This document shows, piece by piece, positions 3,400 through 58,821 of a DNA stretch of 64,000 nucleotides. The translations under genes were made by a program, and so were the position numbers. A model generated the notes under the pieces. The model was given only the letters and a program-made list of their open reading frames with translations, was not told the origin of the DNA and made no database searches. Each line of letters begins with the position of its first letter. Within the stretch, counting starts at the first letter, position 1. This DNA comes from a virus, in the IMG/VR virus record IMGVR_UViG_3300035698_031678, positions 62,001 to 126,000 of that record; one strand, 5' to 3'.

Positions 3400-3402
3400 A
3401 CC

Positions 3403-3410
3403 TATTTATT
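3403..3410 (-). promoter_or_regulatory. T4-late-like promoter box AATAAATA
   Basis: AATAAATA on the minus strand, then GGT and the ATG of the hub gene. The three-base gap implies no room for a leader. Confidence 0.5.
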
Positions 3411-3466
3411 CTGGTAGAAACCGCTTGTTAAAACAATGATTATTTAGTCAACAAAATTCACAGACA

Positions 3467-16628: not shown

Positions 16629-17116
16629 TGGAAATTTTAGAGATCAGTAAGTTAGAACAACACAAAGCTAACATAGATGAAACCATGAAAAGTACATCAA
16701 TGGCTATTAACGAAGTTTTTAGTGATATGTTTTATGAGAGGTTTATAACAGGTCAAGATGTTAATTTTGACCTTCTACAATCTGTACTGTTTGACAAGGT
16801 GGTTTCTATACCAGAAGTAAAAGGTGGGTATATTTACACAAAAAGAGTTGTTGTTAAAAATCCTAATAATAACATAAGGTATTACACTGATTGGAGTCCA
16901 GGAGCAACTGCTGTTAGACACTGCCATAGTGATGCTAATGAAAAAATAACATCAATAAACGGTAGGTATAAGTGGTTTATATTGTTAGAAAACGGTACTA
17001 CTGATACAGGTTTTCTAAATCCTGGAGAGTTTTTAGAAATAAGTGCTGGAGTTTGGCATCAGATTACTGCAATTACAGGAGGAAACCTTCAAGCAGATTT
17101 CACTAAAGTAAGTTAG
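16628..17116 (+). CDS. Cupin-fold protein
   Basis: 162 residues. Cupin motif 1 fits exactly, G-(5)-H-x-H-(4)-E-(6)-G, with His98, His100 and Glu105 as metal ligands. Motif 2 (GEFLEISAGVWHQIT) supplies His144. Such single-domain cupins bind a metal and can be dioxygenases, isomerases or sugar-modifying enzymes, or may only bind a ligand. It lies within the lysis-type run, which does not reveal a substrate. Fold confidence is high, function unknown. Confidence 0.75.
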   Translation: MEILEISKLEQHKANIDETMKSTSMAINEVFSDMFYERFITGQDVNFDLLQSVLFDKVVSIPEVKGGYIYTKRVVVKNPNNNIRYYTDWSPGATAVRHCHSDANEKITSINGRYKWFILLENGTTDTGFLNPGEFLEISAGVWHQITAITGGNLQADFTKVS

Positions 17117-17159
17117 TAACTGAAACTAACTTTTGATATTCTTAAGGTAAATAGAAACA

Positions 17160-17513
17160 ATGAAAACAAAACTATTAAAAGTTTACGATGAAATTGCTGG
17201 AAGAATCTCTACTAAGAACTTAGAAGTTGATGAAATATTTGCAATTATAAAATTTCAGAAGGCTATAAAAGAAAAGATAGATGGTTCTAGAGAAGTTCAG
17301 ATCTCACTTTTTAAACATTATGAGGTAAACCGAGACGAAGCTGGAAATCACGATTGGGCTGACCACGCTGACAAAGAAGAGATTACCAGTAAATTAAAAG
17401 ACATAATGGAAATGGATCACGAGGTGTTTCTTGAAGGTGTTTCCAAAGAAAAACTAGTAGAGGCAAGCATAGGTATGAGTATAGCCCAAATAACTCTTTT
17501 GCTAGAAATTTAA
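17160..17513 (+). CDS. Hypothetical acidic protein (117 aa)
   Basis: Acidic, helical, soluble. Contains HDWADHADKEEITSKLKDIMEMDH, which has a loop rich in Asp and His. It stands between the cupin and the amidase. No family recognised. Confidence 0.6.
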   Translation: MKTKLLKVYDEIAGRISTKNLEVDEIFAIIKFQKAIKEKIDGSREVQISLFKHYEVNRDEAGNHDWADHADKEEITSKLKDIMEMDHEVFLEGVSKEKLVEASIGMSIAQITLLLEI

Positions 17514-24675: not shown

Positions 24676-24692
24676 AAACCAGAAACCATTCT

Positions 24693-24733
24693 TTTTTTAG
24701 CGCATTTTTTATTTGCAAAAATGCGCTAAAAAA
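24693..24733. terminator. 17-bp stem hairpin, probable bidirectional terminator
   Basis: Near-symmetrical structure with a GC core (AGCGCA/TGCGCT) flanked by T-runs on one arm and A-runs on the other. It separates the helicase operon from the ligase gene, whose ATG is 8 bases past it. Confidence 0.65.
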
Positions 24734-24740
24734 TATCACA

Positions 24741-26381
24741 ATGGGAGATAATAGGTACAGACTGATAAATGAATACGTTTCCACTATAAAAGATGCTGAA
24801 ATACAGTACAGATCTGGTACGCCAACTATAACCGACAAGAGTTTTGACGACCTGGTAGATAAACTAAGAGAGTTAGACCCTGGAAACCCAACCTTAGTAA
24901 AAATCATAGGAGAAGTTGTAAAAGGTAAAAAACATAAGTTATCAGTTAGAATGGGTAGCATGGACAAAATCAAGTCCTACGAATTCCTAGAAAAATGGAT
25001 AAAAACCAAAGACTTAGGAGAAACCGAAATGATAATAATGCCTAAGTTTGATGGTATTAGCGTTTTAGGTGATTGTGGGAAATTTTTTACTAGAGGTGAT
25101 GATGGTATAGAAGGGGTAGAAATAACCTCCAGGTACATGGCTACTAAAAACAATTATCAATTTCAACCAAATGATATTTTCAGAGGAGAACTGATAATAA
25201 AAAATTCTGAAACAAAAATTCTGAAAGAGTATGCCTCATTAAGATCAGCAGTAGTTGGTTTAATGAAAGGAGATAGTCCTATTCCAAGTTTGTTAAAATC
25301 TATAGAAATAGTTCCATTTGATCTATTTAGCAGTAACAACACCCTTAAGTCAGAAGACTTAGACTTTATGAAAAAATCTTCTACTAGCAATGTAATGGAG
25401 TATGAATTGCTTAAAGGGCGTAACATAAAATCAGACCATTTAGAAGAGCTTTTTAATAGATGGAATACGGTTTCACCAATAGATGGAATAATAATAGAGG
25501 TAAACAACAAGAAAACCAAAGAAGAATTAAGCTACAGAGAATCTAATGGTAACCCTTTAGGGGCGATAGCTTTTAAAAATGATTATGGTGAAAAGCAAAA
25601 TTCTGTAGTAACAGCTATAATAAGACAAGTTACTAAAAACGGTAGAATGATACCCATAGCTATAATTGATCCAGTAACTCTTCATGGTGACGTGGTTACT
25701 AGAGCCAACTTAGACAATGACAGATACGCTAAGAAAATAGGTATTGGTGTGGGTTCTAAGGTAGTTGTTAAGAAGAGTGGTAGTATAGTACCAAGGATAA
25801 GCCATATAGAAGGTGTTGATGTAGAAGATATAAAATCTGGCAAAGAAATTAATTCTTTTTGCAAATATGTAACTCCAGAACAGTTTAATAATGGTAGTTG
25901 GGTTTATGACAAAGAAAATATATTCTTTAATCAAAAGGTAGCTACAGAAGGTATGTTAAAAAAACAGCTACTACACTCTTTTAAGATTCTTAAGATAAAA
26001 CATATTGGGGATGCTAAAGTGGAGGAACTATTTAAAATAGGCATCAATAGCTTGGATAAAGTTTTAGAAGCTGACATTAATAAAATTAGAACTATTGATA
26101 GTTGGAAAAACAAAACCATAACCAGGTATTTTGATGAACTAGAAGAAAAATTATCAAAAGCTAATCTAGCTCAATTTATGCATTCTACTGGAATGTTCGA
26201 AGGTATAGGAGAACATGCATTGTCTAAGATAATTAACAAAAAGGTTGATGAGGAGATAATTGACGTGGTGGGGGTTGGTGAACATGCCAGCCAAATTTAT
26301 AAAGAAAACATTGGTAGGTTCAATGAAGTTTACCTTGAGCATATAGCAAGAATCAACAATTTTGTTAAAGGCGGTTCTTGA
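24741..26381 (+). CDS. ligA: NAD-dependent DNA ligase, catalytic part
   Basis: 546 residues. KFDG (adenylated Lys102) and TRGDDG followed by GVEIT are the NAD-ligase nucleotidyltransferase motifs. An N-terminal Ia-type region precedes them. An OB-fold (LGAIAFKNDYGEKQNSVV and onward to IVPRI) follows. The four-Cys zinc finger of bacterial LigA is missing: only one Cys is seen there. Helix-hairpin-helix repeats follow (LKIKHIGDAKVEELFKIGI; HSTGMFEGIGEHALSKII). It seals nicks using NAD+. The frame stops at UGA (26379-26381), after which the same frame encodes a BRCT domain. With it the protein would be about 634 residues, near the bacterial length. Confidence 0.88.
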   Translation: MGDNRYRLINEYVSTIKDAEIQYRSGTPTITDKSFDDLVDKLRELDPGNPTLVKIIGEVVKGKKHKLSVRMGSMDKIKSYEFLEKWIKTKDLGETEMIIMPKFDGISVLGDCGKFFTRGDDGIEGVEITSRYMATKNNYQFQPNDIFRGELIIKNSETKILKEYASLRSAVVGLMKGDSPIPSLLKSIEIVPFDLFSSNNTLKSEDLDFMKKSSTSNVMEYELLKGRNIKSDHLEELFNRWNTVSPIDGIIIEVNNKKTKEELSYRESNGNPLGAIAFKNDYGEKQNSVVTAIIRQVTKNGRMIPIAIIDPVTLHGDVVTRANLDNDRYAKKIGIGVGSKVVVKKSGSIVPRISHIEGVDVEDIKSGKEINSFCKYVTPEQFNNGSWVYDKENIFFNQKVATEGMLKKQLLHSFKILKIKHIGDAKVEELFKIGINSLDKVLEADINKIRTIDSWKNKTITRYFDELEEKLSKANLAQFMHSTGMFEGIGEHALSKIINKKVDEEIIDVVGVGEHASQIYKENIGRFNEVYLEHIARINNFVKGGS

Positions 26382-31654: not shown

Positions 31655-31674
31655 TATTTATCTGATAATAAATA
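31655..31674. promoter_or_regulatory. Back-to-back pair of T4-late-like promoter boxes
   Basis: GATAAATA on the minus strand (31655-31662) and AATAAATA on the plus strand (31667-31674) are four bases apart. Each lies 26 bases from its start codon (ATG at 31628, TTG at 31701). The symmetry supports both being real promoters. Confidence 0.65.
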
Positions 31675-31700: not shown

Positions 31701-34700
31701 TTGGATATCAAGAAAATACTTAAGGAGATAGGGAGAACAGACAGCAATGCTGTTTCACTAATTAACGCATTATTACAAATGCAAAGTACTAGTTCTAAAA
31801 GCGTTAGTATAAATTGGGAGTCTGTAGATGGTTCTTTAAGCACGATACAAATTCCTAGTATTACAAAATTATTAGGAGAAATATCCTTGTTGAAAGACAC
31901 CCTAAAAGAAATAACCAAGCCGAATCTTAAAAAGATAACCTTGGTAGGTAATGGTAACAATGTATCCACACTGATATTGCAAGAACCAATGCAAGAACCA
32001 GAATCATTTAGCTTTCCTAAAATCATAACAAAACATTCTTTAGAGCTTAACCTTGACAGTCAATTAAAGAATGAAGAACACTACGCTTTAGTAGAAAACG
32101 CTACTTTGTACAAAGGCTTTGAATTTAAGAAGTACATCATATCCAATTCAGACTACTTCAGAGAGAATTTATTACAAAAGAATTTTAGCGAATTAGAACT
32201 TTTAAGTCTGATACAGGATTCCAATTCTCCTTACACTGTAGAAAAAGGTAGAGTATTAACTGGTATTAGCGAATTTAAAGATAGTGGTAGTTTTATAGTT
32301 ACCTCAATTAGCGGTAGTAAAGTAAAACTAAGTACCACTTCTTACAGAAATTATGAAAATAGAGAACTGAACCTTCAAGAAGGTCAAAACCTAATTCTTA
32401 ATAGAGACACCTTATTCAAAATAGAAACTATAAACACCTTGGAAAATCAGGTGGTGTTGTCTAAAACTAGCGGTAATAGTATATTGACATCATCTTCTAA
32501 CCTTAAGTTGCAAGGAGAAGTTACTACACCAAACATAAAGATTCCAATTGGCAAAGAAAGTAATTTTTTTGTATTCCTTAGAGCTATAGACTTAGAAAAA
32601 AACGTTGTTAGCATAGATTGGGGTAAAGGTCAGGGTGTTATTCCATCTTTACTATTAGATAGTGCTAACGTTCCTTTAGACCAAACTACTATTGTAGATT
32701 ACATAAGCTCTATAAAAGCCATATCTGAAGACAGTATCTTGTCTAATGTAAACATAGAGATTCCTAACATACCAGTTATTTCTTTAGATAATTTTACTGT
32801 TTCTACATTAAATCTGCACAAGAAACAAGACTCTAGGATAGTAGAATTACAAAATCTAAAGAGTAAAAGAATAGAAATAACAGAGAAGGTAAACGCTAAT
32901 AACGAAAGTTTAGGTGAAATACAGTCTGAATTGTCTTTGTTAGATAGTTCCAAAGTAGAAGATCAAAAAGGTATAAACATACTAAAAGAAGAAGAACTTA
33001 AGTATGTAAGAGAAAATGAAAAACTAAATTCCCAAGTAACTAGCATAAGTAACCAATTGTTACAAAACTTCGAAGGTACGGAAGAATTTAAAGCTAAGTT
33101 TGGTATAGTAGGTGTTGTAGAATATCCGCAATCAAAAAATGGTCAGCTAATAAGAGGACTAGAATTAGAATACAGGTATTTAACGGTAGAAGGCTTAGCG
33201 GTAGAGCTTAACAGTAAAGAGGTTATAAAGTCAGGTAAGAAAGCAAGATTAGCCCCAAGTAAGTGGATAAAATATCCTAAGACTTTCAGAAAAAAGAACT
33301 TGTTAGGAAATTTTGATGAAGAAGATTTAGAAAACATTGACGTAAACACACCTAACCAATTTATAGTTCCAATAACAAGAAACGAAATTGTAGAAGTTAG
33401 AGTTAGAAGTATTAGTGATGCTGGTTATCCTTTAAAAGAAATATCTAGCGACTGGTCAGAAAGCGTTAAGTTTAATTTCCCAGAAAGCCTTATAGAAAAC
33501 AGTAATTCTATAGTTAAAGAGATAGAAAAAGAGAAAAACAATAAGGAATTTCAAGAAGAATTTGGTAGAAGGAAATTAAACGGTCACACTAATGACACAT
33601 TTAATGAGAAAGATAAAACCTTTGCACATAAACTTGAAAATTTAGCTACCACCTATAAAACGCCTGAAGAAGCCACACAAGATGCCCAAAGTGCTATGGA
33701 CGAGTTAAAACTCAGAATAAACACTTTAGAAAAAATGTTGAATTCTACTAAGGGTAAGATCTCAATGAGGATATTAGATTCTAACGATAGAGAAGTAGCC
33801 ATAGTTAAGAACAATGAAGTAGTTAAAATAGATGGTGGTCTTTATTCAGAACTTGTAAAGGATTTGGAAACGAAGAAAGGTGGTCTAATTAACCAAGATT
33901 ACAAGATAGAAATAACGAATACAGCTGATGGAGACATTGAAATACTAAGTTACGTACCTGGTAATAAGGAAAGTGGTCTTAGTGAGAATTACGATGGCTA
34001 CATATTCAATAGAGAAGAATATTCTCAATTTAGAAAACAGTACCTAGTACCAATAGCTATGGGTACAGAAGTTTTAGGTGACGAATTTACAAGTTCTTCT
34101 TCTTTTCAAAGTAAACAAGTTCAAGGACAAAACCTCTACGGTAGACACAGAGATATATCTCTTAACAAAGAATTGTATTCAGAACCACTTAATAATATAA
34201 AAGGTGTTGATGTTACAGGAAATACACAAGAGACATTTGTTTGGAATGTAGGTTCTAACCCAACTTCAGCTAGTGGTAATTTAAGCGATTTTTGTGTTCA
34301 CTTGGATCATCCTTTGATAGCTACGGTTGCAAGCAACATAAGCGATTATAACGTAGACCTTACTAAGAAAATAAATTATGATAATGCTTTGAGTCAGAAG
34401 GTTTACAGCCATTTTACTCATTCTGGATTAGCTAGTTTAAGAGAAAAAGAAGCTGGTAGTATCAAGCAATTGTCTTACAGAAACTTCGTGCAGAAAACAT
34501 CTTTAGCAAATATTAATGATGTTATTGTTAAAAGTAGATTTGAAGACTTCGATCAATTTTTGATAGGAAGAGACACTTGTGGTCTTTATCTAAATTTAAA
34601 ACCGTCTAATAGAGAAAACAACCAAGTAAACAGTAGTTCTTACAATAAAGGAGAAATACTTGTTAAGGGAGAAAAGTTGATAATACCATTTTCAGCTTCT

Positions 34701-34889
34701 TCAAGACTGACAGACTACTTTGGTGATGGTTCTATAGGTTTGGGTAGAATTGGGGGAGACAATGATTTGTTAAACGTAAAATATACTAAAAGAATAGGGT
34801 TAGATATACTAATCAAGAATAGGGCTGAAACAGAACTACATTCTTTTGATATAGAGTATTCAATTAAGTATCAAGACAACGACTTATAA
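31701..34889 (+). CDS. Large baseplate/tail structural protein, TTG start
   Basis: 1062 residues. The frame opens with TTG; the next in-frame ATG is 26 codons later, and the stretch in between looks coding (DIKKILKEIGRTDSNAVSLI). A coiled-coil region lies around 385-475 (RIEITEKVNANNESLGEIQS). It is followed by fibronectin-III-like strands (FIVPITRNEIVEVRVRSISD, then AGYPLKEISSDWSESV) of a kind found in tail proteins of large myophages. A second coil region follows near 600-690. Exact position in the tail unknown. Ends before a palindromic terminator shared with the convergent gene. Confidence 0.6.
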   Translation: MDIKKILKEIGRTDSNAVSLINALLQMQSTSSKSVSINWESVDGSLSTIQIPSITKLLGEISLLKDTLKEITKPNLKKITLVGNGNNVSTLILQEPMQEPESFSFPKIITKHSLELNLDSQLKNEEHYALVENATLYKGFEFKKYIISNSDYFRENLLQKNFSELELLSLIQDSNSPYTVEKGRVLTGISEFKDSGSFIVTSISGSKVKLSTTSYRNYENRELNLQEGQNLILNRDTLFKIETINTLENQVVLSKTSGNSILTSSSNLKLQGEVTTPNIKIPIGKESNFFVFLRAIDLEKNVVSIDWGKGQGVIPSLLLDSANVPLDQTTIVDYISSIKAISEDSILSNVNIEIPNIPVISLDNFTVSTLNLHKKQDSRIVELQNLKSKRIEITEKVNANNESLGEIQSELSLLDSSKVEDQKGINILKEEELKYVRENEKLNSQVTSISNQLLQNFEGTEEFKAKFGIVGVVEYPQSKNGQLIRGLELEYRYLTVEGLAVELNSKEVIKSGKKARLAPSKWIKYPKTFRKKNLLGNFDEEDLENIDVNTPNQFIVPITRNEIVEVRVRSISDAGYPLKEISSDWSESVKFNFPESLIENSNSIVKEIEKEKNNKEFQEEFGRRKLNGHTNDTFNEKDKTFAHKLENLATTYKTPEEATQDAQSAMDELKLRINTLEKMLNSTKGKISMRILDSNDREVAIVKNNEVVKIDGGLYSELVKDLETKKGGLINQDYKIEITNTADGDIEILSYVPGNKESGLSENYDGYIFNREEYSQFRKQYLVPIAMGTEVLGDEFTSSSSFQSKQVQGQNLYGRHRDISLNKELYSEPLNNIKGVDVTGNTQETFVWNVGSNPTSASGNLSDFCVHLDHPLIATVASNISDYNVDLTKKINYDNALSQKVYSHFTHSGLASLREKEAGSIKQLSYRNFVQKTSLANINDVIVKSRFEDFDQFLIGRDTCGLYLNLKPSNRENNQVNSSSYNKGEILVKGEKLIIPFSASSRLTDYFGDGSIGLGRIGGDNDLLNVKYTKRIGLDILIKNRAETELHSFDIEYSIKYQDNDL

Positions 34890-36670: not shown

Positions 36671-37440
36671 AAAGCAAACAATATTCTACTTAATCCTACC
36701 GTTCCAGAAAAACCATGGTGAACTTCAGAATCTTGACCTAAAATAAACCCATAACCCAATTGAGCGGTTATTCCCCATCTAGAGGGTTTTCTTTCATCAT
36801 TTACATTAAAAACTCTTAAGTCCTCTATATCAGAGTAAGGTGACAATGAAGTAACGTCAGCATATGGAGTTCTAGAGCCAAAATTACGTTTAAAGAATCC
36901 ACCTTTTTCTGGTTTTTGGTCTCCAATAGTGATGTTATAGCTGTCTTTGTATGAAAATCTTAGGTCTATATTAGAAGAGCTTGCTTTTATAGAGTATTCT
37001 ATCCAATCGTCTGAAAAATCAGTACTGTATATTGTTTCTTTAATTTCACCTTCTAATGTATCAATTACTGTAACTACTGTTCCTGTAGTGCTTTCTACTG
37101 CACCCCTGGTGTCTAGTATTATAGCAGAACCATTTCTCTTTATTTCTTTATTATTATCTTTTACCAACTTCTGTAACCTTAGCATTTGAGGATCAGTAAA
37201 GACAGCATTTACAAAGTCTTTAGGGTCTCTGGTCTCGTTTACTTTTATTCTACCTACTGTTTGACCTAAATCATTTACAGATTTTTCCATTTTGGAATTA
37301 GAACTTTCAATAAGTTTTTTTAGTTCTTTAATGTCTTTATTCTTGTCGCAGCTGTTTGTTAGAATAATTATGCAAATAATGCCTAACAGTATGGTGAGCA
37401 AGTTTACTTCTTTAATTTGATTTAGTAGGTAAGTTTTCAT
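36667..37440 (-). CDS. Lipoprotein-like membrane protein (257 aa)
   Basis: A hydrophobic N-terminus (LLTILLGIICIIILTNS) ends at Cys31 in TNSC, a plausible lipobox, followed by CDKNKD. A coiled coil follows (IKELKKLIESSNSKMEKSVN). The C-terminal part is beta-rich and glycine-containing (TAQLGYGFILGQ). This could be an outer-membrane spanin-like lysis protein of Gram-negative phages, or another envelope protein. Overlaps purB by 29 bases. Confidence 0.55.
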   Translation of the reverse strand: MKTYLLNQIKEVNLLTILLGIICIIILTNSCDKNKDIKELKKLIESSNSKMEKSVNDLGQTVGRIKVNETRDPKDFVNAVFTDPQMLRLQKLVKDNNKEIKRNGSAIILDTRGAVESTTGTVVTVIDTLEGEIKETIYSTDFSDDWIEYSIKASSSNIDLRFSYKDSYNITIGDQKPEKGGFFKRNFGSRTPYADVTSLSPYSDIEDLRVFNVNDERKPSRWGITAQLGYGFILGQDSEVHHGFSGTVGLSRILFAF

Positions 37441-38812
37441 GTTCTCTAGTTATTAATTCGGATAATACGTTATTTGAAAAGTAATTATCAAAGTTCTCTT
37501 TTAAATACTCTAAATCCCATTGTACGTTATCTTTGCTCATTAGCTTCATGGAAAGATAAGATTCAGGCTCGTTAGACATAATTCCATACAACTGACCCAC
37601 TTCACTAGCAAATTGGTAGTTACTATTGAGATCTTCTGAGATTGCTTTAGAATTAAATTCATACTGCTCTAAACCTTGATTAAGAGAGCATAATGCTTGA
37701 TTAAAGTAGCATAGTAGCAAAGGTAAATTTCTAACAACGGTTAAATCACTTAAATCTCTTTGCAATCTACTCAAAGATAAAGATGATCTCAATGTATCTA
37801 ACATTCCTATAGCTAGTTTTAAATTACCTTCAGCGTTTTCTAAACTTATGGGATTAATTTTTTGGGGCATAGTACTACTACCAAACTCATTATCACCAGT
37901 TTTCCTAACCAGGTAATTTATAGAACAATAATACCACATGTCTTGAGTGAAATTTAATAGCTGGTACATTATTTTGGATAAATCATTGAAAGAATCTAAA
38001 ATGCCTTCGTACTTATTGCTTTGGAAATGGGGTTTTATTTGGAAGTCTTTAGTTGAGGTATTGTAAAAGTATTGTATTAATGTGTCCTTTGAAACCTCAT
38101 ATCCATTGAAACCTAGTAGTTTTGCAGAGTAATTGTTACCGATAGTACCATTTCCAAATTGAATTTTAGTATTACCGAAGTTTTCAAAATATTCTTCTAG
38201 ACCATTAGTGGTAAGATATCTACTCATAAGATCTTTTATCTTAATAGGGACAGCAACCTGACCATGGGTTCTACCCAACATGTATTCATCTTTGGACATG
38301 CTTTCTACAGATTCGTGAACCTTTGACATGTTAGTGTTTATAATGTCATAAAGAGTATCTTTGAACATTTTAGTTTGAACCACTCCAACTATGTCTTGGC
38401 TAGTCAGATTGAAATGTACTAGGTCACAAATAGAATAGATTCTAGAGGAGTCTAATTTAATAGACAAGAAGTCAGATATTTTTTGTTTTAGTAGCGTTTT
38501 TACTGCTGCAATATCGTGTTTGGTTTCTCTTTCTATAATCTTTACAAGACTTAAATCGTAAGCATCAAGAATCTTGTACATTTCTTTTTGGTTATCTTTG
38601 TCTTCTAATAGTAACTTAGTAATTCCAAGAGATTTTTTGATGTCAGGATTTAATAGATCTTGGTCAAAGGCTGTCTTATAGTTTTTTATTAGATTTACCC
38701 AATACAAAAACTCTAAGAAATAGCAATTTTTGTAGTACTCGTTCTCACTATAAGCACTATTTACAATTTCGGCATTTTTAGCGTATCTACCATTGTTATC
38801 AAATAAGTTCAT
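37412..38812 (-). CDS. purB: Adenylosuccinate lyase (PurB)
   Basis: 466 residues, full family length. The fumarase/aspartase-superfamily signature GSSTMPQKINP holds the catalytic Ser312/313; KHDIAAVK, HFNLTSQD and GRTHGQ are the other active-site blocks (His99, His133, Thr137-Ser138, His183). In bacteria PurB splits adenylosuccinate to AMP and SAICAR to AICAR, both with release of fumarate. A phage copy would raise purine supply. It could also process an N6-succinyl purine deoxynucleotide if a PurZ-like partner exists outside the window; none is visible here. It lies between the portal and the lipoprotein gene, among virion genes. Confidence 0.85.
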   Translation of the reverse strand: MNLFDNNGRYAKNAEIVNSAYSENEYYKNCYFLEFLYWVNLIKNYKTAFDQDLLNPDIKKSLGITKLLLEDKDNQKEMYKILDAYDLSLVKIIERETKHDIAAVKTLLKQKISDFLSIKLDSSRIYSICDLVHFNLTSQDIVGVVQTKMFKDTLYDIINTNMSKVHESVESMSKDEYMLGRTHGQVAVPIKIKDLMSRYLTTNGLEEYFENFGNTKIQFGNGTIGNNYSAKLLGFNGYEVSKDTLIQYFYNTSTKDFQIKPHFQSNKYEGILDSFNDLSKIMYQLLNFTQDMWYYCSINYLVRKTGDNEFGSSTMPQKINPISLENAEGNLKLAIGMLDTLRSSLSLSRLQRDLSDLTVVRNLPLLLCYFNQALCSLNQGLEQYEFNSKAISEDLNSNYQFASEVGQLYGIMSNEPESYLSMKLMSKDNVQWDLEYLKENFDNYFSNNVLSELITREHENLPTKSN

Positions 38813-38853
38813 TCTAAGGTTTCCTCAAGAATAATACACCTAACTATCAGTTT

Positions 38854-40731
38854 CTATAGTTCAGGGTTTTTATCCTTTGCTAGCATATTTTTATTAATTT
38901 CCCAATCTTCTTCTGTCATGATGGATAATTTGTTAACCATAAGAAACTTGGGTGAAAATATTGGTTCTCTATTAGCATCCTGGAGTCTTTCATAAATACT
39001 GTAATTCTCCATTTTAGCCTTTTCAAGTTCATACTCTTTAGCTAGCGTAAAGTATCCTTCTGTGTTAAAAACTATCTTAATAGAATTGTAAAACCCATTG
39101 TCTAAAGAAAGACTTGGGTCTAAAAGAACTGTATTTATGAATACTGTATTTTTTATAATTCTGGAAAATTCACTAGTGATTCTTCTACACCTTTTATGGT
39201 AAGATATTTCGTCATGTGGTATTCCATCATTCTTGAACAATATCAAAGAACCACCACCATTAGAACCATCAAATCTATTACTAGGTCTAGTACTGTTTCT
39301 TTGAAGTCTCTTCTCAAAGTATTCTACCACTTCCATTTTACTCAAGTCTACTCCATTGTAGGAAACACTGTCTATTTGGGTTGTATTACCACTTCTGGAA
39401 GGCAGTGCGATGTTTCTACCAAATTTATAGTCAGCCTCACCATTTATAGTAACCTGACCACTCTTGGAATCTATAGCAACTTTTTCTTTGTACTGACCAA
39501 CCAATTTAGCTACTGCTTCTTTAGATTTAGTACCTAGTTTACTACCTGTAGGCACTACCATTTTAAGCCTGAATTGACCTACCATAATATTCCAAGCAAC
39601 TCTAGACTCTTCTAGGCTTCTTTTCAGATTATAGTCTCTTTTAAGTGAATCTAAGTAACTAGAGTTGTTGTACTTACTATTACCAGAAACATTTCTCCAT
39701 TCTATTAAACCAAATGAATTTTCTGGATAGTATTTGTATTTTCCTCTCTCATCAAGAGTTTTGTACATTAATACTATAGAACCATCTTCGTGAACACCAT
39801 CAACCTTAGCTATTCTATAAGCGTTTACTCTTTTCATACCAATAATCTTGACTGGTATGTCGGTAACTTCTCGCTTTGGCAAATTTACCGTTTCTCTAAT
39901 TTTGCTTTTTCTATTTCTTGATCCTTGTGATTCATTTAAATCTTCCAATTCGTCTTCCAGATCATTAAATCCTTCTTCACCATCAACAGCGTCTTCTTCA
40001 AGACCTTGCAAGGTTTTAGCAAACGCAAGTCTATTTTCACTTATTTTTTCTAAACCACTAAGTTTTTCATTTTCTTTTATAAGTGTTTTAGCAACGATTT
40101 GATTAGACTCGCTTAGGTCTCTCATATTGTTCTTACCGTTAGGTAATATTTCGTTCAATTTAGATTCGTTTAGTCTAATCTTTTTGATGATTTTGTTTCT
40201 CTTATCGTCAAAATCTTTTCTATTTTGAGTTTCATATATGTTTTCATATGCAACTCTACCAATCAGCATAAAACTGTAAAAAACCATCCAAGCTGTTTGT
40301 TCCTTGTCAAATTCAAGAAAAGATAAAGTGGAATTAAATTCTGACCTTATTGTTTCTTTCATTTTATCACTGAAAGTAAATTTCTTTTCATTAAATTCTA
40401 TGTCACAAAATTCGTGATCGGTATCGTATACTATACAATCATCAACTATACCTTCTATGATGTTTTTTAATTCAACGTTTTCGTCTAGATAAAGTTTTAT
40501 CTCTTCTTCATCAAACCATTGTTGTTCTCTAAGTTGTTGATTAGCTTCTTCTTCGTAAAAGGCTTCGTAGTGATTTAACTCGTCTGTAGTTTGAGAAAAT
40601 TTTTTGGTCTTTTTAGAAAGTATTTGTTTATCTATGCCTACTTTAAAAATACCTCTAACGGAATCAGGTACTATAGATGTGTTGACTCTTCTTCCATGAA
40701 GTCTTCTTCTATAATTATATCGATTGGTCAT
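38854..40731 (-). CDS. gp20-like portal protein
   Basis: 625 residues. A long charged N-terminal region precedes the core: LEESRVAWNIMVGQFRLKM and VEYFEKRLQRNSTRPSNRF correspond to the T4 gp20 order (crown/wing helices, then the helix ending V-x-Y-F-x-x-K-L-x-x-x-x-x-x-P). RRITSEFSRIIKNTVF fits the following helix. The length is near T4's 524, with an enlarged N-terminal domain. It forms the dodecameric gate for DNA packaging and the site of procapsid initiation. A late box is 10 bases before its ATG. Confidence 0.75.
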   Translation of the reverse strand: MTNRYNYRRRLHGRRVNTSIVPDSVRGIFKVGIDKQILSKKTKKFSQTTDELNHYEAFYEEEANQQLREQQWFDEEEIKLYLDENVELKNIIEGIVDDCIVYDTDHEFCDIEFNEKKFTFSDKMKETIRSEFNSTLSFLEFDKEQTAWMVFYSFMLIGRVAYENIYETQNRKDFDDKRNKIIKKIRLNESKLNEILPNGKNNMRDLSESNQIVAKTLIKENEKLSGLEKISENRLAFAKTLQGLEEDAVDGEEGFNDLEDELEDLNESQGSRNRKSKIRETVNLPKREVTDIPVKIIGMKRVNAYRIAKVDGVHEDGSIVLMYKTLDERGKYKYYPENSFGLIEWRNVSGNSKYNNSSYLDSLKRDYNLKRSLEESRVAWNIMVGQFRLKMVVPTGSKLGTKSKEAVAKLVGQYKEKVAIDSKSGQVTINGEADYKFGRNIALPSRSGNTTQIDSVSYNGVDLSKMEVVEYFEKRLQRNSTRPSNRFDGSNGGGSLILFKNDGIPHDEISYHKRCRRITSEFSRIIKNTVFINTVLLDPSLSLDNGFYNSIKIVFNTEGYFTLAKEYELEKAKMENYSIYERLQDANREPIFSPKFLMVNKLSIMTEEDWEINKNMLAKDKNPEL

Positions 40732-45609: not shown

Positions 45610-46545
45610 TTATACCAGTTCTGTTTCCATTATCTCTCCAAATCTATCAAAATGGTATTTTTTGATTGTTTCTTCGTAATGGGTTTGTGTTGTTAGTATT
45701 CCCAGTTCATTCTTCTCTTGCCAAACACCAACTCTAGTACCATTTTCGTATAGACCTTTTTCCAGGATTACTCCATTGTTGTGTGTTTTGGTGTACTCTC
45801 CATTTAATTTTCCAGAGGTTCTAGAACACATTACCAAACAGTCGCTGCTTATTGTTTCTACTTTACCGTTTATGGTTTTGTCTTCTTGTCTTTTTGATTT
45901 CTCTATTTCGCTTTCTAGTAGTGCTTTGATTTTGGTTCTGGCTCTTCTGTTTCTGCTTGTAATTGTTACTCTACTGTTGATGTTATACTCTTTAGCGATT
46001 TCTTCTGGAGATATTCTTAGTATGATTGCTTTTCTTAGAATCTCGTATTCTTCTCCTTGGTATAGTTCCTTAAGTTTTTCTTCTATGAATTGAGATTGCA
46101 TCACTATATCGCTGTGAAAACATCCTTGTTCTGGTTCTAGCTCTTCTTGCTCGTGATTAGGAATTAGGTTTTCAAATACCTCTGCGCTAGTTTTAGAGTC
46201 TTCGAAGAACATTTCACCTTCTAGGATTTCGTGTCTGTTTTTCTTTTTTCTGTAGGATTGTATTGCTTGGTTTCTAGCGGTAACGAATATCCATGATAGG
46301 AAGCTCTTTTCTGGGTCGAAGATGCTCTCTTCTTTTTTGTTCTTTGTACCTATCCAGATTTTCATTCCTATCTCACTTTTTATGGTGTGGAATATCTCTT
46401 CGTCATTCTTTGTGATAGAACCTATTGCGCTTCTAACTATTGCGCTTAGCTCTTCAAATATTGGAGCGAAGTTCTTCTCGTTCTTGTCGTTGAAGAAAGT
46501 TTCTGCTAGTAATTGAATTTTGTTTTGTTCGTGTTTCTTTGCCAT
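45610..46545 (-). CDS. ECF-like RNA polymerase sigma factor with MORN-like C-terminus
   Basis: 311 residues. Region 2 is at about 24-105 (FDPEKSFLSWIFVTARNQAI then SYRKKKNR), the -10-recognising part of sigma-70 proteins. Region 4 is at about 150-210 (YEILRKAIILRISPEEIAKE followed by a basic helix SRNRRARTKIKALL). Sigma 1 and 3 are missing, as in ECF factors. The last 70 residues hold a MORN/YwqK-like unit (SGKLNGEYTKTHNNG, then GLYENGTRVGVWQEKNELG), unusual on a sigma factor. It could direct host polymerase to the late boxes, as gp55 does in T4; that link is inferred. Transcribed from the GTCAT cassette together with the gene before it. Confidence 0.78.
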   Translation of the reverse strand: MAKKHEQNKIQLLAETFFNDKNEKNFAPIFEELSAIVRSAIGSITKNDEEIFHTIKSEIGMKIWIGTKNKKEESIFDPEKSFLSWIFVTARNQAIQSYRKKKNRHEILEGEMFFEDSKTSAEVFENLIPNHEQEELEPEQGCFHSDIVMQSQFIEEKLKELYQGEEYEILRKAIILRISPEEIAKEYNINSRVTITSRNRRARTKIKALLESEIEKSKRQEDKTINGKVETISSDCLVMCSRTSGKLNGEYTKTHNNGVILEKGLYENGTRVGVWQEKNELGILTTQTHYEETIKKYHFDRFGEIMETELV

Positions 46546-46592
46546 GCCGATTTTTGTTATCTGTTATTAATTGTTACTTTTTCAGTAGGTTT

Positions 46593-47099
46593 CTAGCAAT
46601 AGTTTTTGCTTAGTATTATTTCTTTGTTTTTTGTTCCTTCTATGTAGGCTGTTGTTATGACCGACTTTTCTATTAGAGTCGTTACTAATGCCCCAATTGT
46701 GAAACTGTTCATTTTTTTGGTTACTAGGTGCTTAGCTCTTATTGGCTTAACCCCTTTGTTAACCAGGTTTCTAATTCTTTTAACAAGTATTGTTTGTTTT
46801 GGTGATAACCCAGTAACGTTCTTTTTTACTGTTTTTTTCTTCTTTTCTTCTTTTTTTATCCCACCAAATATTAGTGAACACATCTTAGGGTTTTCTTGGT
46901 TTACTGCTTCTACTACCTTTTCTAATTTACCCTTTTCATCTAGTGTTTCTAGGTATTGCTCAAGGTCTTCTCTAACCTCTGATTCTAACAGTTCGTCAGT
47001 ATCTTCTTTTTTGAATTCCTTCATGTCAATCCAACATCTGAACCACCAAAGTTCAAGAACGTTAAGATTACTTAAATCGTGATTTTTTTGATTTGCCAT
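46593..47099 (-). CDS. Probable DNA-binding protein (168 aa)
   Basis: First gene after regulatory cassette B and upstream of the sigma factor. N-terminal 80 residues acidic and helical; then a lysine-rich linker (KKEEKKKKTVKKN) and a C-terminal part (SPKQTILVKRIRNLVNKGVK, then TIGALVTTLIEKSVI) that looks like a winged helix. It could bind its own operator, an inference from position and fold. Confidence 0.55.
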   Translation of the reverse strand: MANQKNHDLSNLNVLELWWFRCWIDMKEFKKEDTDELLESEVREDLEQYLETLDEKGKLEKVVEAVNQENPKMCSLIFGGIKKEEKKKKTVKKNVTGLSPKQTILVKRIRNLVNKGVKPIRAKHLVTKKMNSFTIGALVTTLIEKSVITTAYIEGTKNKEIILSKNYC

Positions 47100-52902: not shown

Positions 52903-55900
52903 TTAAATTGAAAGAAGTGAATGTAGGTTAGGATTAACCATTTTCACCATTTCCATTAGGTCTTCTTTGGGCATTGATTCCATCATCTTATCACCTAAAA
53001 CGATCTCTATCTCCTCTATCTCATCATCATCCGCACTCATGTAAGCCTCTAATTCTTCATCTGAAAGTTCACCTGTGTAGGGCTTATCGCTTACAAATTC
53101 TTTTTTCTCTGAATCTTCCACCTCTGAAATTCTAGCTTCAGGGCTTTCCATTTTAGATTTAGCTGCTTCAATAACATCTTGATTTTCCATCATGGTGTTA
53201 TCCATTTCCATCATTTTATTAGCGTAAGTTTCCATAATATTCTTCATTTGCTTACTTTCTTCTTTCATTGATTCAGTCAACTCTACAAGCTTTCTTTTAA
53301 TCAATTGATTTTCTTCAAACAAACCTCTTAGATTATGTTCGTTAGCATAGATAGATTTAGCAACATTTCTGTCTATGAATTTTTTCTTAGACTCACTAAG
53401 TACAACTCTTGCAGAAACAATATTACCTTTTACATCATAATGGGTAGATTCCATCAAACCTTTCAATATACGGTTTTGTTTAATCTTGCTATCAGTAATT
53501 TTAGAAATTTTGCTTTTACACTCTTGCAATAAAACTTTTCCAAAAATATCTTTAGCTTTATCTAGTCCACCTTTAGCTCTCACTCTTTTAGCAAGCTTGT
53601 AAGCAGATTCCATTAAGCTAGTTTTATAAACTTTCTTACTTTCATTAATGCTTAGAATAGTCTTTGTGTCTGTTGCAAAAGCACCCTTCTTACGAAATTT
53701 TACCACTCTTTTAGATTCCGACATTACTACCAGGTTCTTTTGAGCCATAGCTACTTTAGAGTAATTTGACTTAGAAGCTTCGTTAAGCCCCATTGCAGTA
53801 GTGTTTATCATGCTTTTAGCATTTTCTAGGAATTCATCAACTAATTCTTCGCTAGAACGTATCTCAACATGCTCTGTTACAGTAGGCTCAAGTGTGCCAT
53901 CCTGGTTTTCAGGTTTCATATCTTCGTTTAAACCTTTAGCACCACTTCTTAAATGAACTTTGAATTTGTCTTTGAATTCAGCATCCATTTTAGATTGACT
54001 TGGCATTATAGCTTTAGATTCAGAAATATCTTGTAAAACTTCTTCACCTTTCTCTTCAGCTATGTCTTCCTCGTTAGTTTCATCTATCATGCAGCCTTTC
54101 TCTTCTGCCATCTTTTTAGCCTTTTTCTCATCGTAGTATAAGCCCATTTCCTCGCCTTTGTCGCTGTAAAGTGAATAAACTTTTCTATTCTCATTTAGAC
54201 CCATTTCCTCTCTGTCAATGTTTGCATCCATGTCTTCTTTAAACATTTTAACAATATCATCTTGGCTTGGCATTACCGCCTTAGATTCGTCAAGATCCGC
54301 ACCACCTTGGTAAGATCCATACTCATCTAAAGAGACCATTGAATCAACATCTTCGGAATTAACTTCTATCATTATTCCAGAATTATCAAAAACGTGCTTC
54401 TCGTCAACAATACCTTTATATTGCGCATAAGCTTCAACATCACCTTTTTTAACCATGTAAGTTTGGTCTAGCTCTAGATCAATAGATTCATTCAACTTTC
54501 CAGAAACTTCGTATCCGTCTTCTTGTGCAGCTGTATGTGCAGCATTTTCGCTAGGGTAACCATCATCTATTAAAACTCCTTTAGAACCATATATTGCCCA
54601 ATTGTCTCCTGAACCTTCAATGGTAACTTTGCCACCAGCGTCTTCGTTAAGAATCCCTTTTTCCATTGCCACAATTTTGGCAATCATTTCTGGTATAACA
54701 TCAGAACCAAAGTCGTAATTTATTAGTAAGTGTTCTACACCACTATCTCCTATTTCTGCATAACCACCATTGGATTTTACATCCTTAAGAACTTTTTTAA
54801 TATCTTCTTCTGTGTAAGCTTTTTTATAATAATCTCCTAAACCACTGGCATCTTCATTCATCTTACCATCTTCCATCTTCTTTCTTTGTGCTATCATTTC
54901 TGGAGATTCAACGTCTTCGGAAACATCATGAATTTTAGCATACCTTTCGTATTCTTGACTGTATCCTTTTGCTAATAAAGTATCTTTAAGATCTTTTAAA
55001 CTAAAATCTGAACCCAATTCTGTATTAAGCCATTTAAAGTTTTTGTTACCTTTTATAATATCTTTAAGCATTTTGTTCTGAACACCTTCGGAAACATCTT
55101 TTAGTTTATCTTCTACCATTTTAGTGTACTCGCTTAGTAGACCATATTCTTCTAAATCTTCCACTCCAAGATTAATATCACCAACTACTCCAGCAGATGT
55201 TATGGTCACTTTACCTGAATCATCTACGGTATAATTCACTTCTACGTCTCCATCAGGTGTGTCCTTGAGAATTGTTTTAGATTCATTTAGGTTTTTGTTA
55301 CCTTCTAGTTTATCTTCTACCATTTTAGTGTACTCGCTTAGTAGACCATATTCTTCTAAATCTTCTACTCCAAGATTAATGTCACCAACTACTCCAGCAG
55401 ATGTTATGGTCACTTTACCTGAATCATCTACGGTATAATTCACTTCTACGTCTCCATCAGGTGTGTCCTTGAGAATTGTTTTAGCTTCATTTAGGTTTTT
55501 CTTCTTTCTAAAAGTAGTGTTAGATTCATTGAGCATTGTAACTTCTAAATAATTGTAGTCAATATAATCAGCAATCCATTCTCTAACATCTTCCATTTCA
55601 TCACCTATTTCACCATCGTCATAATGATCATCACTAATAGGCGCACCTTCAAATACGATTGTACCCTTTTTAAACTCTAATGTAACATCACCAAACTTTT
55701 GACCATCTTCATCTTCGTTAGTTATTTCTGATGTCACGTAGTCTCCTAATTTGTTGACAGCATCTTCAAACGCTGCATCTGAATCAATAATTTTAGACTC
55801 ATTTAAATTTTTTCTTCTCATAACTGATTCGCTTAAATCACCTTTAATTTTATCAAAGTCGCTTTTTAAAAGCCATATTGCCATAGGGCTAGCATCTTGT

Positions 55901-58797
55901 TGTGTAATAGCTTTTACACCATTAACTTCACCAATTGTTATTCCAGCCATAGTGTACTTGTCGTTGTCTATAGATTTGGTTTCTTTCCAATTAAGACCAA
56001 ATTCTCTGGCGTTTTCTATATTCCAAATTTCGTCTAAATCTCCAATTTCATAAATCATTATAAAATCTTTTGACCCAAGTTCTTTTTCTAGAAATGATTT
56101 AAAATCGTTATAATCGCTATTATCAGCAAAAGCATCATTCCAATCTCCTGTTTTTAATCTGCTTTCGTTTAGATTTTTTCTGTTCATAACTGATTTGTTT
56201 TCTTTCAAACTAATATTTTCTTTTTTAGCATATTCTATTAAAGCTTTAGTTACTTTAGCAACATCATGACTTATATCTAGACCGTTGTTTTCGAATTTAT
56301 TAAGATTACCAAATTTTTCTATTTGGTATTTTACTCTAGAAACATTTTCCCCATTGTAATAATCATGAGCAATTTTTTCAGCAAAATTTTTATCAATCTT
56401 AAATTGAGATAAGATATGACCCAATTTTTTCATCTTTTCATCAGACTCTAATTGTATATCTTCATTTAAGTTCCTTTTTCTAAGTTTACTCACTTTTTTT
56501 GCTTCGTGCATTTTTACTAGAGTTTTATTACCACTCATCTTTACAGCCTTAATAACATCTTCTACTTGTTTAGGCGTCATTTTTTCTAGGAAGTTTCCAG
56601 CAGTGTTTGATCCACCACCTGTAGCCATCATATCATCCCACTTTAAATTGGACATTTTTTCGATTTGCTCAACTAAGATATTAGCTTCACTATTACCTAA
56701 ACCAATTTCATCTAGAACGTCTTGGTTTTCTAGGTTGTTTATAATGTTAGAAAATTCTTTTGACTCGTTCATTCTGATTTTGTTTTTAGATATAGACTTT
56801 CTTTTGTTTTCATCAAGATCTCTAAGTTTTCTCGATTTTATTCCAATGGCTTCTGCATCCGATTTTTTCATAATTATTTCTGAATGATAATCTGCAACTT
56901 CTATTGCGCTTCTATTATCAACCTTTACCATCTTGTAACTAATGTCGTACTCATCCCCATTCCAAGTTAAGTATTCTGTGTTATTATTAACAGGAATACC
57001 ATTTTTTGCCATTTCTTCAAAATCTAAACCAGATTCTGGGTCGCTTCCCAAAGAATATATTACAACAAATTCATTTCCTCCTAGAGTATTTTTAATCATT
57101 TTTATGAACTCTGGAGCTTCTTGTATGGTGTGAAAAGTTTCTAATTTACCTGATTGTCCGTAAATCTTTAAGTTCCCTGATTGTATTTCCTCGTTCATTC
57201 TAATTTTGTTTTTAATATTTTTTGACTCGTTCAGTAAGCCCTTAGTATAACCATGTTCAAAGGCTGTTTCACCAAATTTTTTAAAATAAGGTAATTCTTG
57301 GGTAAGAGTTTTCTCAAATGACATTCCTAAATCAAGGTTTTTCATCGTTTTTTTAATAGATGAAATAACACTTTCTGGTGTTAAATTGTCAAAGGTGTCA
57401 AAGGTGTCTTGGCTAATGCTATTTTTAACTAATGCTAGGTTGTTTTTATTAGCAGATTCATTTAATGCAGCTATCTTTGATTCGTTTAATTCGTAGTCAA
57501 AACCAAATTTTTTCTTAAGCTGTTCTATTGCATGAGATCTACCTTCTATGTGATCTTTATGACCTGGGCTTGTTTCTAAATCAGAATTATATTCTTCTAT
57601 AGTGTCAATAAGCTCTCTACCTTCTTTGTCAGCTAATACTTGTTTGAAAGTAGAATCTTCTGACATGTTGGTTTTTTTACTTTCTGAAAGTCCCATAATT
57701 GCTTCAATTTCGTTTTCGTTTAATTTTACTTTATTACTAACCTCTAAACTATAGTTACTTCTGTTAGGCACGTGGTTATCTATGTCGAAGTATTTCGATT
57801 GATTGTACACTTTCAAAATTTCTAAGTCTGGAAACTTCTCTAAAACTTTACGTTTTAGCAAATCATCAGGTATCATGTCTAATGTCTTAAGGGCATGCTT
57901 TCTAGTAAGTATGGATGTTTTTACTGTTACTGATTTATCAGATATGGATACCTCTACTTCTATGGGTTTTCTTAGGTAACCACTAATAACATCTTCGAAT
58001 ACTTCGCCTAAATCTTTTGCGCTATTAACTAGTTTGTTAAATTTTGTTATTGCTAATTTGTTGTTGTTATAAGCTTCTTTTGCTGATGGTGTTATTAAAG
58101 TAGAAACGCTTTCATTAAGATTGAATTTTACCAATTTTTTGTTGTGATCCATTCTTTTCTTAACGTTCTTAAGTTCGCTTTCATTAACCTCAACTATTGC
58201 TGTGTTTCCTCTTTCCTCTATAGGGTTTAATTTAGCAAAAGTAAATCCTGGTGTAGAAACTATGTCTATTGTAAAAATTGTGTCTATAGTAGCTTTTTCC
58301 GTATCTTCATCAAAATATCCTATAGCTCTAGTGCTAACGCTTAGAGTACCACCATTATTGATTATGGCTAATGCGTCTATTCCACCACCTATAACTGTTG
58401 GTATTATTTTTATTCTTACGTAAACACGATTCTCATCTTCTTTGTACCACAACTTGGTGATTATGTGAGAAACCTCTTTCATAGAGATTTCGTAATTATC
58501 ATCATGGTTTAATGCACCAAATAACCTTCTTTCTTCAATCCAAGGTTGCAAATACTCTACTTGTTCTAGGTATTCTTCTTTGCTATACCATCTGCCATTC
58601 TCATTAGTACCATCTTCTGCTGACTCACCAAATACGGCTAGTGGTGCTTCCAGTGTGATAGACTGATCATTTACAGGAGAAAGATCTAGTCCAGCATTTT
58701 CATAGAGCTTTACATTTTGTAATTTTTCTGTCTTAATCCTTTTTAAAGGAGAAGAAGATTGCTCAAATAACCAAACTAATTTTTTATTTTCAGGCAT
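52903..58797 (-). CDS. Prohead protease fused to a 1750-residue scaffold/core region
   Basis: 1964 residues. Residues 1-205 are a T4 gp21-like protease: NENGRWYSKEEY, GALNHDDN with candidate catalytic His98, SVSTRAIG with candidate Ser155, then IVSTPGFTFAKLNP. T4 gp21 is about 212 residues and separate from its core protein. Here it runs on into a helical, acidic, repetitive region of many short modules joined by LNES, LNEN, LNED and similar (more than 15), which fit the [LIM]-x-E cleavage rule of such proteases. One 68-residue module is tandemly duplicated, and another about 75-residue module occurs at least twice in diverged form. It ends in helical scaffold-like sequence. Late box 16 bases before the ATG. 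Confidence 0.8.
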   Translation of the reverse strand: MPENKKLVWLFEQSSSPLKRIKTEKLQNVKLYENAGLDLSPVNDQSITLEAPLAVFGESAEDGTNENGRWYSKEEYLEQVEYLQPWIEERRLFGALNHDDNYEISMKEVSHIITKLWYKEDENRVYVRIKIIPTVIGGGIDALAIINNGGTLSVSTRAIGYFDEDTEKATIDTIFTIDIVSTPGFTFAKLNPIEERGNTAIVEVNESELKNVKKRMDHNKKLVKFNLNESVSTLITPSAKEAYNNNKLAITKFNKLVNSAKDLGEVFEDVISGYLRKPIEVEVSISDKSVTVKTSILTRKHALKTLDMIPDDLLKRKVLEKFPDLEILKVYNQSKYFDIDNHVPNRSNYSLEVSNKVKLNENEIEAIMGLSESKKTNMSEDSTFKQVLADKEGRELIDTIEEYNSDLETSPGHKDHIEGRSHAIEQLKKKFGFDYELNESKIAALNESANKNNLALVKNSISQDTFDTFDNLTPESVISSIKKTMKNLDLGMSFEKTLTQELPYFKKFGETAFEHGYTKGLLNESKNIKNKIRMNEEIQSGNLKIYGQSGKLETFHTIQEAPEFIKMIKNTLGGNEFVVIYSLGSDPESGLDFEEMAKNGIPVNNNTEYLTWNGDEYDISYKMVKVDNRSAIEVADYHSEIIMKKSDAEAIGIKSRKLRDLDENKRKSISKNKIRMNESKEFSNIINNLENQDVLDEIGLGNSEANILVEQIEKMSNLKWDDMMATGGGSNTAGNFLEKMTPKQVEDVIKAVKMSGNKTLVKMHEAKKVSKLRKRNLNEDIQLESDEKMKKLGHILSQFKIDKNFAEKIAHDYYNGENVSRVKYQIEKFGNLNKFENNGLDISHDVAKVTKALIEYAKKENISLKENKSVMNRKNLNESRLKTGDWNDAFADNSDYNDFKSFLEKELGSKDFIMIYEIGDLDEIWNIENAREFGLNWKETKSIDNDKYTMAGITIGEVNGVKAITQQDASPMAIWLLKSDFDKIKGDLSESVMRRKNLNESKIIDSDAAFEDAVNKLGDYVTSEITNEDEDGQKFGDVTLEFKKGTIVFEGAPISDDHYDDGEIGDEMEDVREWIADYIDYNYLEVTMLNESNTTFRKKKNLNEAKTILKDTPDGDVEVNYTVDDSGKVTITSAGVVGDINLGVEDLEEYGLLSEYTKMVEDKLEGNKNLNESKTILKDTPDGDVEVNYTVDDSGKVTITSAGVVGDINLGVEDLEEYGLLSEYTKMVEDKLKDVSEGVQNKMLKDIIKGNKNFKWLNTELGSDFSLKDLKDTLLAKGYSQEYERYAKIHDVSEDVESPEMIAQRKKMEDGKMNEDASGLGDYYKKAYTEEDIKKVLKDVKSNGGYAEIGDSGVEHLLINYDFGSDVIPEMIAKIVAMEKGILNEDAGGKVTIEGSGDNWAIYGSKGVLIDDGYPSENAAHTAAQEDGYEVSGKLNESIDLELDQTYMVKKGDVEAYAQYKGIVDEKHVFDNSGIMIEVNSEDVDSMVSLDEYGSYQGGADLDESKAVMPSQDDIVKMFKEDMDANIDREEMGLNENRKVYSLYSDKGEEMGLYYDEKKAKKMAEEKGCMIDETNEEDIAEEKGEEVLQDISESKAIMPSQSKMDAEFKDKFKVHLRSGAKGLNEDMKPENQDGTLEPTVTEHVEIRSSEELVDEFLENAKSMINTTAMGLNEASKSNYSKVAMAQKNLVVMSESKRVVKFRKKGAFATDTKTILSINESKKVYKTSLMESAYKLAKRVRAKGGLDKAKDIFGKVLLQECKSKISKITDSKIKQNRILKGLMESTHYDVKGNIVSARVVLSESKKKFIDRNVAKSIYANEHNLRGLFEENQLIKRKLVELTESMKEESKQMKNIMETYANKMMEMDNTMMENQDVIEAAKSKMESPEARISEVEDSEKKEFVSDKPYTGELSDEELEAYMSADDDEIEEIEIVLGDKMMESMPKEDLMEMVKMVNPNLHSLLSI
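55102..55500. repeat. 204-bp tandem duplication inside the scaffold region
   Basis: Period 204 bp (68 codons): the second copy matches the first to about 195 bp with only three differences seen. It encodes the TILKDTPDGDVEVNYTVDD module ending with an LNES joint. The near-identity points to a recent event or ongoing conversion. Confidence 0.85.
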
Positions 58798-58813: not shown

Positions 58814-58821
58814 TATTTATT
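58814..58821 (-). promoter_or_regulatory. T4-late-like promoter box AATAAATA
   Basis: AATAAATA on the minus strand, 16 bases before the ATG of the protease-scaffold gene. The remainder of the 131-base gap up to 58928 has no gene. Confidence 0.5.

Follow-up and report, generated by a model that had tools for sequence, protein, structure and literature searches.

The sigma factor gene and its nearest relative

The window analyzed here, a stretch of 64,000 nucleotides, covers positions 62001–126000 of a 129,295-bp virus record. An open reading frame of 311 codons lies exactly at 45610–46545 on the minus strand (the preliminary description gave no strand). The features assigned to this gene, in window positions, are the following.

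45610–46545, minus strand: 311-aa ECF-like sigma factor with a C-terminal YwqK/MORN_2 tail, orthologue of MaF61 ORF93 (open reading frame, PHROG 1740, TIGR02937, alignment with MaF61)
46200–46480, minus strand: sigma region 2, about aa 22–115 (Pfam Sigma70_r2 core at aa 76–103, hhalign alignment from aa 20; approximate edges)
45910–46075, minus strand: helix-turn-helix of sigma region 4, about aa 157–212 (hhalign alignment to aa 211, PHROG 1740 match to aa 222; approximate edges)
45613–45834, minus strand: last 74 aa, a YwqK/MORN_2 module that MaF61 lacks (MORN_2 at E = 0.011 with the tail alone, matches in Flavobacteriales)

Among annotated phages, the closest is Flavobacterium phage MaF61 (PQ858689.1, 167,814 bp), described as a cultured myovirus originating from a Finnish lake (PMC13269007). 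Its ORF93 (67710–68411) aligns with aa 1–237 of the window sigma factor at 36% identity (E = 8e-37). The record and MaF61 share 69 protein pairs at E ≤ 1e-4 (another comparison of the two phages used E ≤ 1e-3), and the sigma factors and promoter classes were compared in these two phages (n = 2). Scans of viral contigs with the sigma factor alone, the two-phage alignment, the capsid, and the portal returned no relatives; the terminase scan returned 14 distant loci, and no sigma factor was found in the ten of these 14 records that were searched. The scan of genome contigs with the sigma factor likewise gave no relative, and, among the 80 ribonucleotide-reductase relatives returned from genome contigs, none of the six examined has a relative of the sigma factor. 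A distantly related virus record of 246 kb carries one gp55-type and two ECF-type sigma factors, hence, mixed sets of sigma factors may be more common.

Sigma regions 2 and 4

Profile searches of the sigma part agree with the preliminary description, which had claimed an ECF-like factor with regions 2 and 4 of sigma-70. PHROG 1740 (RNA polymerase sigma factor) matches aa 76–222 at E = 3.1e-9, and this is the sole PHROG 1740 match in each of the two phage genomes at E ≤ 1. The NCBIfam family TIGR02937 (sigma70-ECF) matches aa 74–208 at E = 9.4e-10, with 38.4 bits, under the curated cut-off of 42.9 bits. The profile of the two phage sigma factors aligns with four ECF sigma factors over aa 20–211 (hhalign, 98.5%). 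Pfam Sigma70_r2 is matched at E = 0.0012 with the whole protein and at E = 2.3e-4 with the N-terminal 105 aa, both under the Pfam cut-off; Pfam gives no stand-alone match for region 4 with the whole protein or its parts, and region 4 lies within the spans of both the PHROG 1740 and the TIGR02937 matches. Homology to the ECF family (TIGR02937) is thus found for region 2 as well as for region 4.

The AlphaFold model of the full-length protein, built from a single sequence, has pLDDT 38. The sigma profile also matches clostridial neurotoxin light chains in PDB (E = 0.005); this match, over 53 residues and with no shared function, was judged to be due to chance.

The YwqK/MORN_2 tail

The tail begins where MaF61 ORF93 ends, so that the MaF61 orthologue has the sigma part without the tail, and tblastn of the tail against MaF61 gives no match. 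Pfam MORN_2 is matched at E = 1.9 with the whole protein and at E = 0.011 with the tail alone, the score of 16.3 bits being under the cut-off of 29.6. At E ≤ 0.1, the tail has matches in 120 of 196 Flavobacteriales genomes (the best at E = 1.2e-8, 40% identity), and the partners examined are repeat proteins resembling YwqK, most of them about 220 aa long. Since this many genomes match and the partners are YwqK-like, the tail is, by sequence similarity, a YwqK/MORN_2 module of approximately two repeats that one of the two phages carries. The segment reported in the preliminary description as MORN/YwqK-like is therefore confirmed, the Flavobacteriales matches being decisive. An internal repeat with an offset of 24 residues is seen in the tail, but it is not significant alone, as 2966 of 20,000 shuffles score as high.

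The tail may be the functional point of the protein, regulating or tethering the sigma factor through partner binding, self-inhibition, or contact with the envelope; this would imply a regulated sigma factor, unlike that of MaF61. In the preliminary description, ties to DNA, clamp, or membrane were considered possible for the extra domain. A role of the tail agrees with its being a clear two-repeat module of the YwqK type, for which a run of beta strands is predicted (pLDDT 65), and with the top row of the Foldseek search with the tail structure, SET7/9, which has N-terminal MORN repeats. However, this fold match is not significant (E = 0.97), and the tail is missing from the MaF61 orthologue, so that we regard a regulatory role as unlikely. 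VIA structural alignment gives the best Z of 5.1, to KhtT, and no MORN structure stands out. Judging from the tailless orthologue in MaF61, the tail is dispensable for the core function of the sigma factor; it was probably acquired from proteins of the Flavobacteriales type, as a protein-binding addition specific to this lineage. No other fusion of a YwqK/MORN module with a sigma factor was found in the open-licence literature searched.

Promoter classes in MaF61

The middle-like (M) class of MaF61 is the dyad GCAAC-N16-CATT, with 49 sites and at most three at any other tested spacing. For GCAA-N17-CATT, 27 sites are observed vs. 0.5 expected from the other spacings (10^-36), the best of 40 shuffled sets reaching 10^-7. 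The late (L) class, (G/A)ATAAATA, has 36 sites. With the deposited annotation and a distance of 200 nt, 39 of the 49 M sites are close to the start of a same-strand annotated gene (base rate 0.116), and 32 of the 36 L sites have a gene start within this distance; with crude ORF starts and 150 nt, upstream sites number 27 of 49 for M and 27 of 36 for L. M precedes mostly replication and nucleotide genes, and also the gp55-like gene considered below, while L precedes virion genes: among annotated genes, sorted into classes by eye, virion or packaging functions are seen for none of 12 genes with M vs. 8 of 11 with L (p = 3.4e-4).

The early-like (E) class consists of tandem GATGTTAAA repeats, with eight sites, all upstream of genes. 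The sigma gene ORF93 lies behind an E-type promoter, and ORF75, the gp55-like gene, behind an M promoter. Host-type promoters TTG-N-TANNTTTG are rare upstream of genes (2/24 and 3/39 sites in the two genomes), so that the assignment of the tandem-repeat class to host sigma A is tentative, judged by eye from its –7 element.

At MaF61 positions 3838, 50483, 52615, 68494, 95538, 161400, and 166458, tandem GATGTTAAA repeats together with AAGCTTCGTA/AAGCTTCCTA blocks stand before early-type genes; these arrays may possibly be an early enhancer or activator array. At 61020/61021, 63291/63292, and 109032/109033 of MaF61, pairs of late boxes between divergent genes overlap head to head in the palindrome GATAAATATTTATC, so that a single element of 14 bp may act in two late promoters.

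Middle-type promoters of the window phage

The MaF61 dyad GCAAC-N16-CATT is all but absent from the window genome (one site). The version of M seen there is GAAAC(C/T)-N16-ATT, weaker than that of MaF61. The sub-pattern AAC-N17-ATT of the MaF61 dyad, with homologous spacing, occurs 30 times vs. 12.7 expected (10^-4.6), and AAAC-N16-CATT eight times vs. 0.94. GAAAC-ATT pairs are upstream of genes in 13 of 18 cases at gap 17 and in 35 of 170 at other gaps (p = 1.5e-5), the G of GAAAC having been picked after looking at the data. In a blind dyad search of the window genome, M is not significant: block-shuffled sets are equally strong, and another dyad ranks first. For this reason, the motif of the window genome can serve only to test the one found in MaF61. 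Moreover, composition-naive p-values are inflated, block-shuffled sets reaching 10^-7 to 10^-10.65, and hence we rely on the spacing tests.

Orthologous genes provide evidence for M that is independent of the spacing tests in the window genome. The MaF61 orthologue has M in 7 of 13 pairs with an own M in the window phage, vs. 8 of 56 pairs without (p = 0.005). M and L are nearly exclusive: none of the 16 genes with an own L box has M in MaF61 (p = 0.015), and one of the 13 with an own M has L in MaF61. Of the 15 pairs with M in MaF61, eight have none in the window phage, the gp55-like gene among them. The middle-type promoters considered in the window are the following.

46569–46593, minus strand: GAAACC-N16-ATT, 23 nt before the ATG of the sigma gene, putative autoregulation (PWM 16.6, threshold 8.4)
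3417–3441, plus strand: before the ORF 3467–4216 (PWM 17.8)
17116–17140, plus strand: before 17160–17513 (PWM 11.2; the MaF61 orthologue also has the M dyad)
24682–24706, plus strand: before the DNA ligase gene 24741–26381 (PWM 17.9; the MaF61 orthologue also has the M dyad)
38830–38854, minus strand: before the adenylosuccinate lyase-like gene 37412–38812 (PWM 14.3; the MaF61 orthologue also has the M dyad)

In a region like that upstream of the sigma gene, GAAAC-N17-ATT is expected by chance 0.006 times. The promoter of the sigma gene itself differs between the phages, being early-like in MaF61 and M in the window phage. The adenylosuccinate lyase-like gene (37412–38812) and a synthetase-like gene (L008:8229–9587), both named after the MaF61 annotation, are behind M in both phages; given these genes, a modified purine in the phage DNA is worth checking.

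Late boxes and the gp55-like protein

The (G/A)ATAAATA boxes, described previously as numerous, are indeed so: 27 are present in the 129,295-bp record, of which 23 precede an ORF on the same strand by at most 110 nt (base rate 6.6%, p = 1e-23). The box of T4 itself, TATAAATA, is not in use, having nine sites in the window genome, one of them upstream. The window holds 14 late boxes preceding an ORF, including the first of the two given here.

31667–31674, plus strand: late box (G/A)ATAAATA before the ORF 31701–34889 (the MaF61 orthologue also has the box)
58814–58821, minus strand: late box (G/A)ATAAATA before 52903–58797, a prohead scaffold-like orthologue (box search)

The preliminary description assigned the window sigma factor a role comparable to that of T4 gp55, directing late transcription from these boxes. 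The boxes are real and conserved between the window phage and MaF61, and the sigma factor is the only clear one in each genome by PHROG 1740, both of which speak for this assignment. However, the protein does not match gp55 profiles. When a profile of ten gp55 sequences was compared by hhalign with 69 profiles of the genes shared with MaF61, the window sigma factor scored E = 0.16, about tenth of the 69, and the best match, from residue 1, was the ORF at record positions 3210–3929 (outside the window), the counterpart of MaF61 ORF75 (E = 7.8e-4, the next one being 0.04). Under T4-like logic, a sigma factor lacking region 4 reads (G/A)ATAAATA as a box of one element; such a box does not require the region 4 that the window protein has. 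Further, in both phages the sigma genes follow early-type or M-type sequences rather than L boxes, and the separate bipartite class would be left without a reader. The gp55-like match of the other gene is itself weak, and this favors the late assignment of the window sigma factor; on balance, we find that assignment improbable. From the preliminary description, then, the ECF-like sigma factor with its MORN/YwqK tail and the late-type boxes are retained, and the gp55-type role is not.

For the gene at 3210–3929, PHROG 234 (gp55) gives no match in the window record at E ≤ 10 (T4 control, 2.5e-70), and MaF61 ORF75 is matched at E = 0.0018 in one search and 0.029 in another. By eye, about 110 residues separate a part resembling region 2.2 from an end resembling region 2.4; the C-terminal end alone scores no better than some random fragments do, 4 of 201 being as good. 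The record ORF 3210–3929 and MaF61 ORF75 are likely, with moderate confidence from these profile comparisons, to be gp55 orthologues. The gp55 protein consists of a sigma-2 domain and a clamp-binding end (PMC2988020), and the C-terminus of the window sigma factor is the YwqK tail. The search for a sliding clamp, proposed along with the gp55-type role, identified no convincing gp45-like clamp in either phage by PHROG or by hhalign over the 69 pairs and 101 unpaired ORFs. MaF61 ORF136 is annotated as a putative sliding clamp; its orthologue L009:6838–7815 is a gp44-like clamp loader (PHROG 168, E = 9.1e-36; AAA, E = 2.5e-11).

Proposed assignment of sigma factors to promoters

From the type of the sigma factor, the homology of its tail, the promoter classes with their gene sets, and the separate gp55-like gene, all taken from sequence comparison, we infer that the ECF-type protein is a middle sigma factor reading the bipartite M class, and that the gp55-like protein reads the late promoters, with a probability of roughly two in three. 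The names middle and late, as well as the proposed timing, follow gene content and the logic of T4. M is assigned to the window sigma factor and L to the gp55-like protein because a sigma factor with region 4 would require two promoter elements, and one without it a single element. Such a relation is described for phage sigma factors: that of 7-11, with region 4, reads GTAAtg-(16)-aCTA, while gp36 of phiEco32, without region 4, reads one element (PMC8948821). ECF sigma factors are generally reported to read an AAC motif at –35 (PMC4153023).

The window sigma factor would bind the host core RNA polymerase and direct it to phage middle promoters, GAAAC(C/T)-N16-ATT in the window phage and GCAAC-N16-CATT in MaF61, with region 4 reading the –35 element, which contains AAC, and region 2 the –10 element, which contains ATT. 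In the proposed order, host sigma A would act first, followed by the window-type sigma factor, which would serve the middle genes, including that of the gp55-like sigma factor; the latter would then read (G/A)ATAAATA in front of the late genes. The sigma gene of MaF61 would be early, as the tandem-repeat promoter in front of it has a host-like –7 element. As the sigma gene of the window phage has its own M promoter, positive feedback is suggested, in which the protein would raise its own expression; it is probably self-activating.

Alternatively, M could be read by a sigma factor of the host, be it an ECF sigma factor or sigma A assisted by an activator from the phage, and the window protein would then be an ancillary or minor one. 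Host ECF sigma factors also use AAC-type –35 elements (PMC4153023), and the middle class of T4 is transcribed by the host polymerase with MotA and AsiA (PMC6024815). However, neither MotA nor AsiA was found in either phage, while the T4 positive control was matched; the M motif is unlike the host –7 element TANNTTTG, as given in PMC6847099; and, unlike the late box, the –35 element differs between the phages (GAAAC vs. GCAAC), which is easier to reconcile with a rapidly diverging reader encoded by the phage than with one from the host. We consider reading by a host factor quite unlikely. With the ECF-type protein as the reader of M, the window-type sigma factor would replace MotA/AsiA in the middle slot.

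Tentatively, these phages may represent a T4-related lineage of Bacteroidetes phages with a three-tier cascade, having its own ECF-type middle sigma factor (bipartite promoters, self-activated) and a gp55-like late sigma factor (an apparent insert of about 110 residues in sigma-2, one-element promoters), with the middle sigma factor regulated by YwqK in one branch. In T4, the middle class is the textbook case of an activator acting with an anti-sigma factor, and phage sigma factors, including ECF-like ones, are already known; a T4-like phage with two sigma factors and a bipartite middle class was not found in the open-licence literature searched. The lineage appears to use a dedicated sigma factor for the middle step. 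Since the promoter is sharply defined (49 near-identical sites) in the cultured MaF61, the idea is directly testable; the two phages form a natural pair, in which the sigma factor and the –35 element seem to diverge together while the late box is fixed. Consensus sequences of middle and late promoters would be added for the annotation of phages whose genes mostly lack a named function.

Comparison with known systems

T4 MotA/AsiA occupy the same middle slot as that proposed for the window sigma factor; they are, however, an activator and an anti-sigma factor acting on the host polymerase, with no homologue in either phage. Like the window sigma factor, T4 gp55 is a phage sigma factor from a T4-like genome with the ATAAATA late box; unlike gp55, the window protein has region 4 and no match to gp55.

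Similar to what is proposed here, 7-11 gp47 and phiEco32 gp36 are phage-encoded sigma factors redirecting the host core, and the region-4-bearing sigma factor of 7-11 uses a bipartite promoter with a 16-nt spacer. These two are enterobacterial podophages, unlike the window phage; the 7-11 sigma factor is a late one, and 7-11 is presented as having no middle class. In the passages of PMC8948821 considered here, neither a second phage sigma factor nor a YwqK tail is reported for 7-11 or phiEco32, and neither phage is among the 13 tblastn matches of the window sigma factor at E ≤ 10.

ECF (group 4) sigma factors, i.e., TIGR02937 and Bacteroidetes TIGR02985, align end to end with the window sigma factor in regions 2 and 4, and share with it, as far as its own promoters are predicted, the AAC-type –35 element and the 16-nt spacer. 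The window protein differs from them in scores under the curated cut-offs, a long linker, its location in a phage genome, and the YwqK tail. The alignment of this tail with Flavobacteriales MORN_2 proteins of the YwqK type covers two repeats, the best match having about 40% identity; those proteins are mostly stand-alone and of about 220 aa, whereas in the window phage two repeats are fused to a sigma factor.
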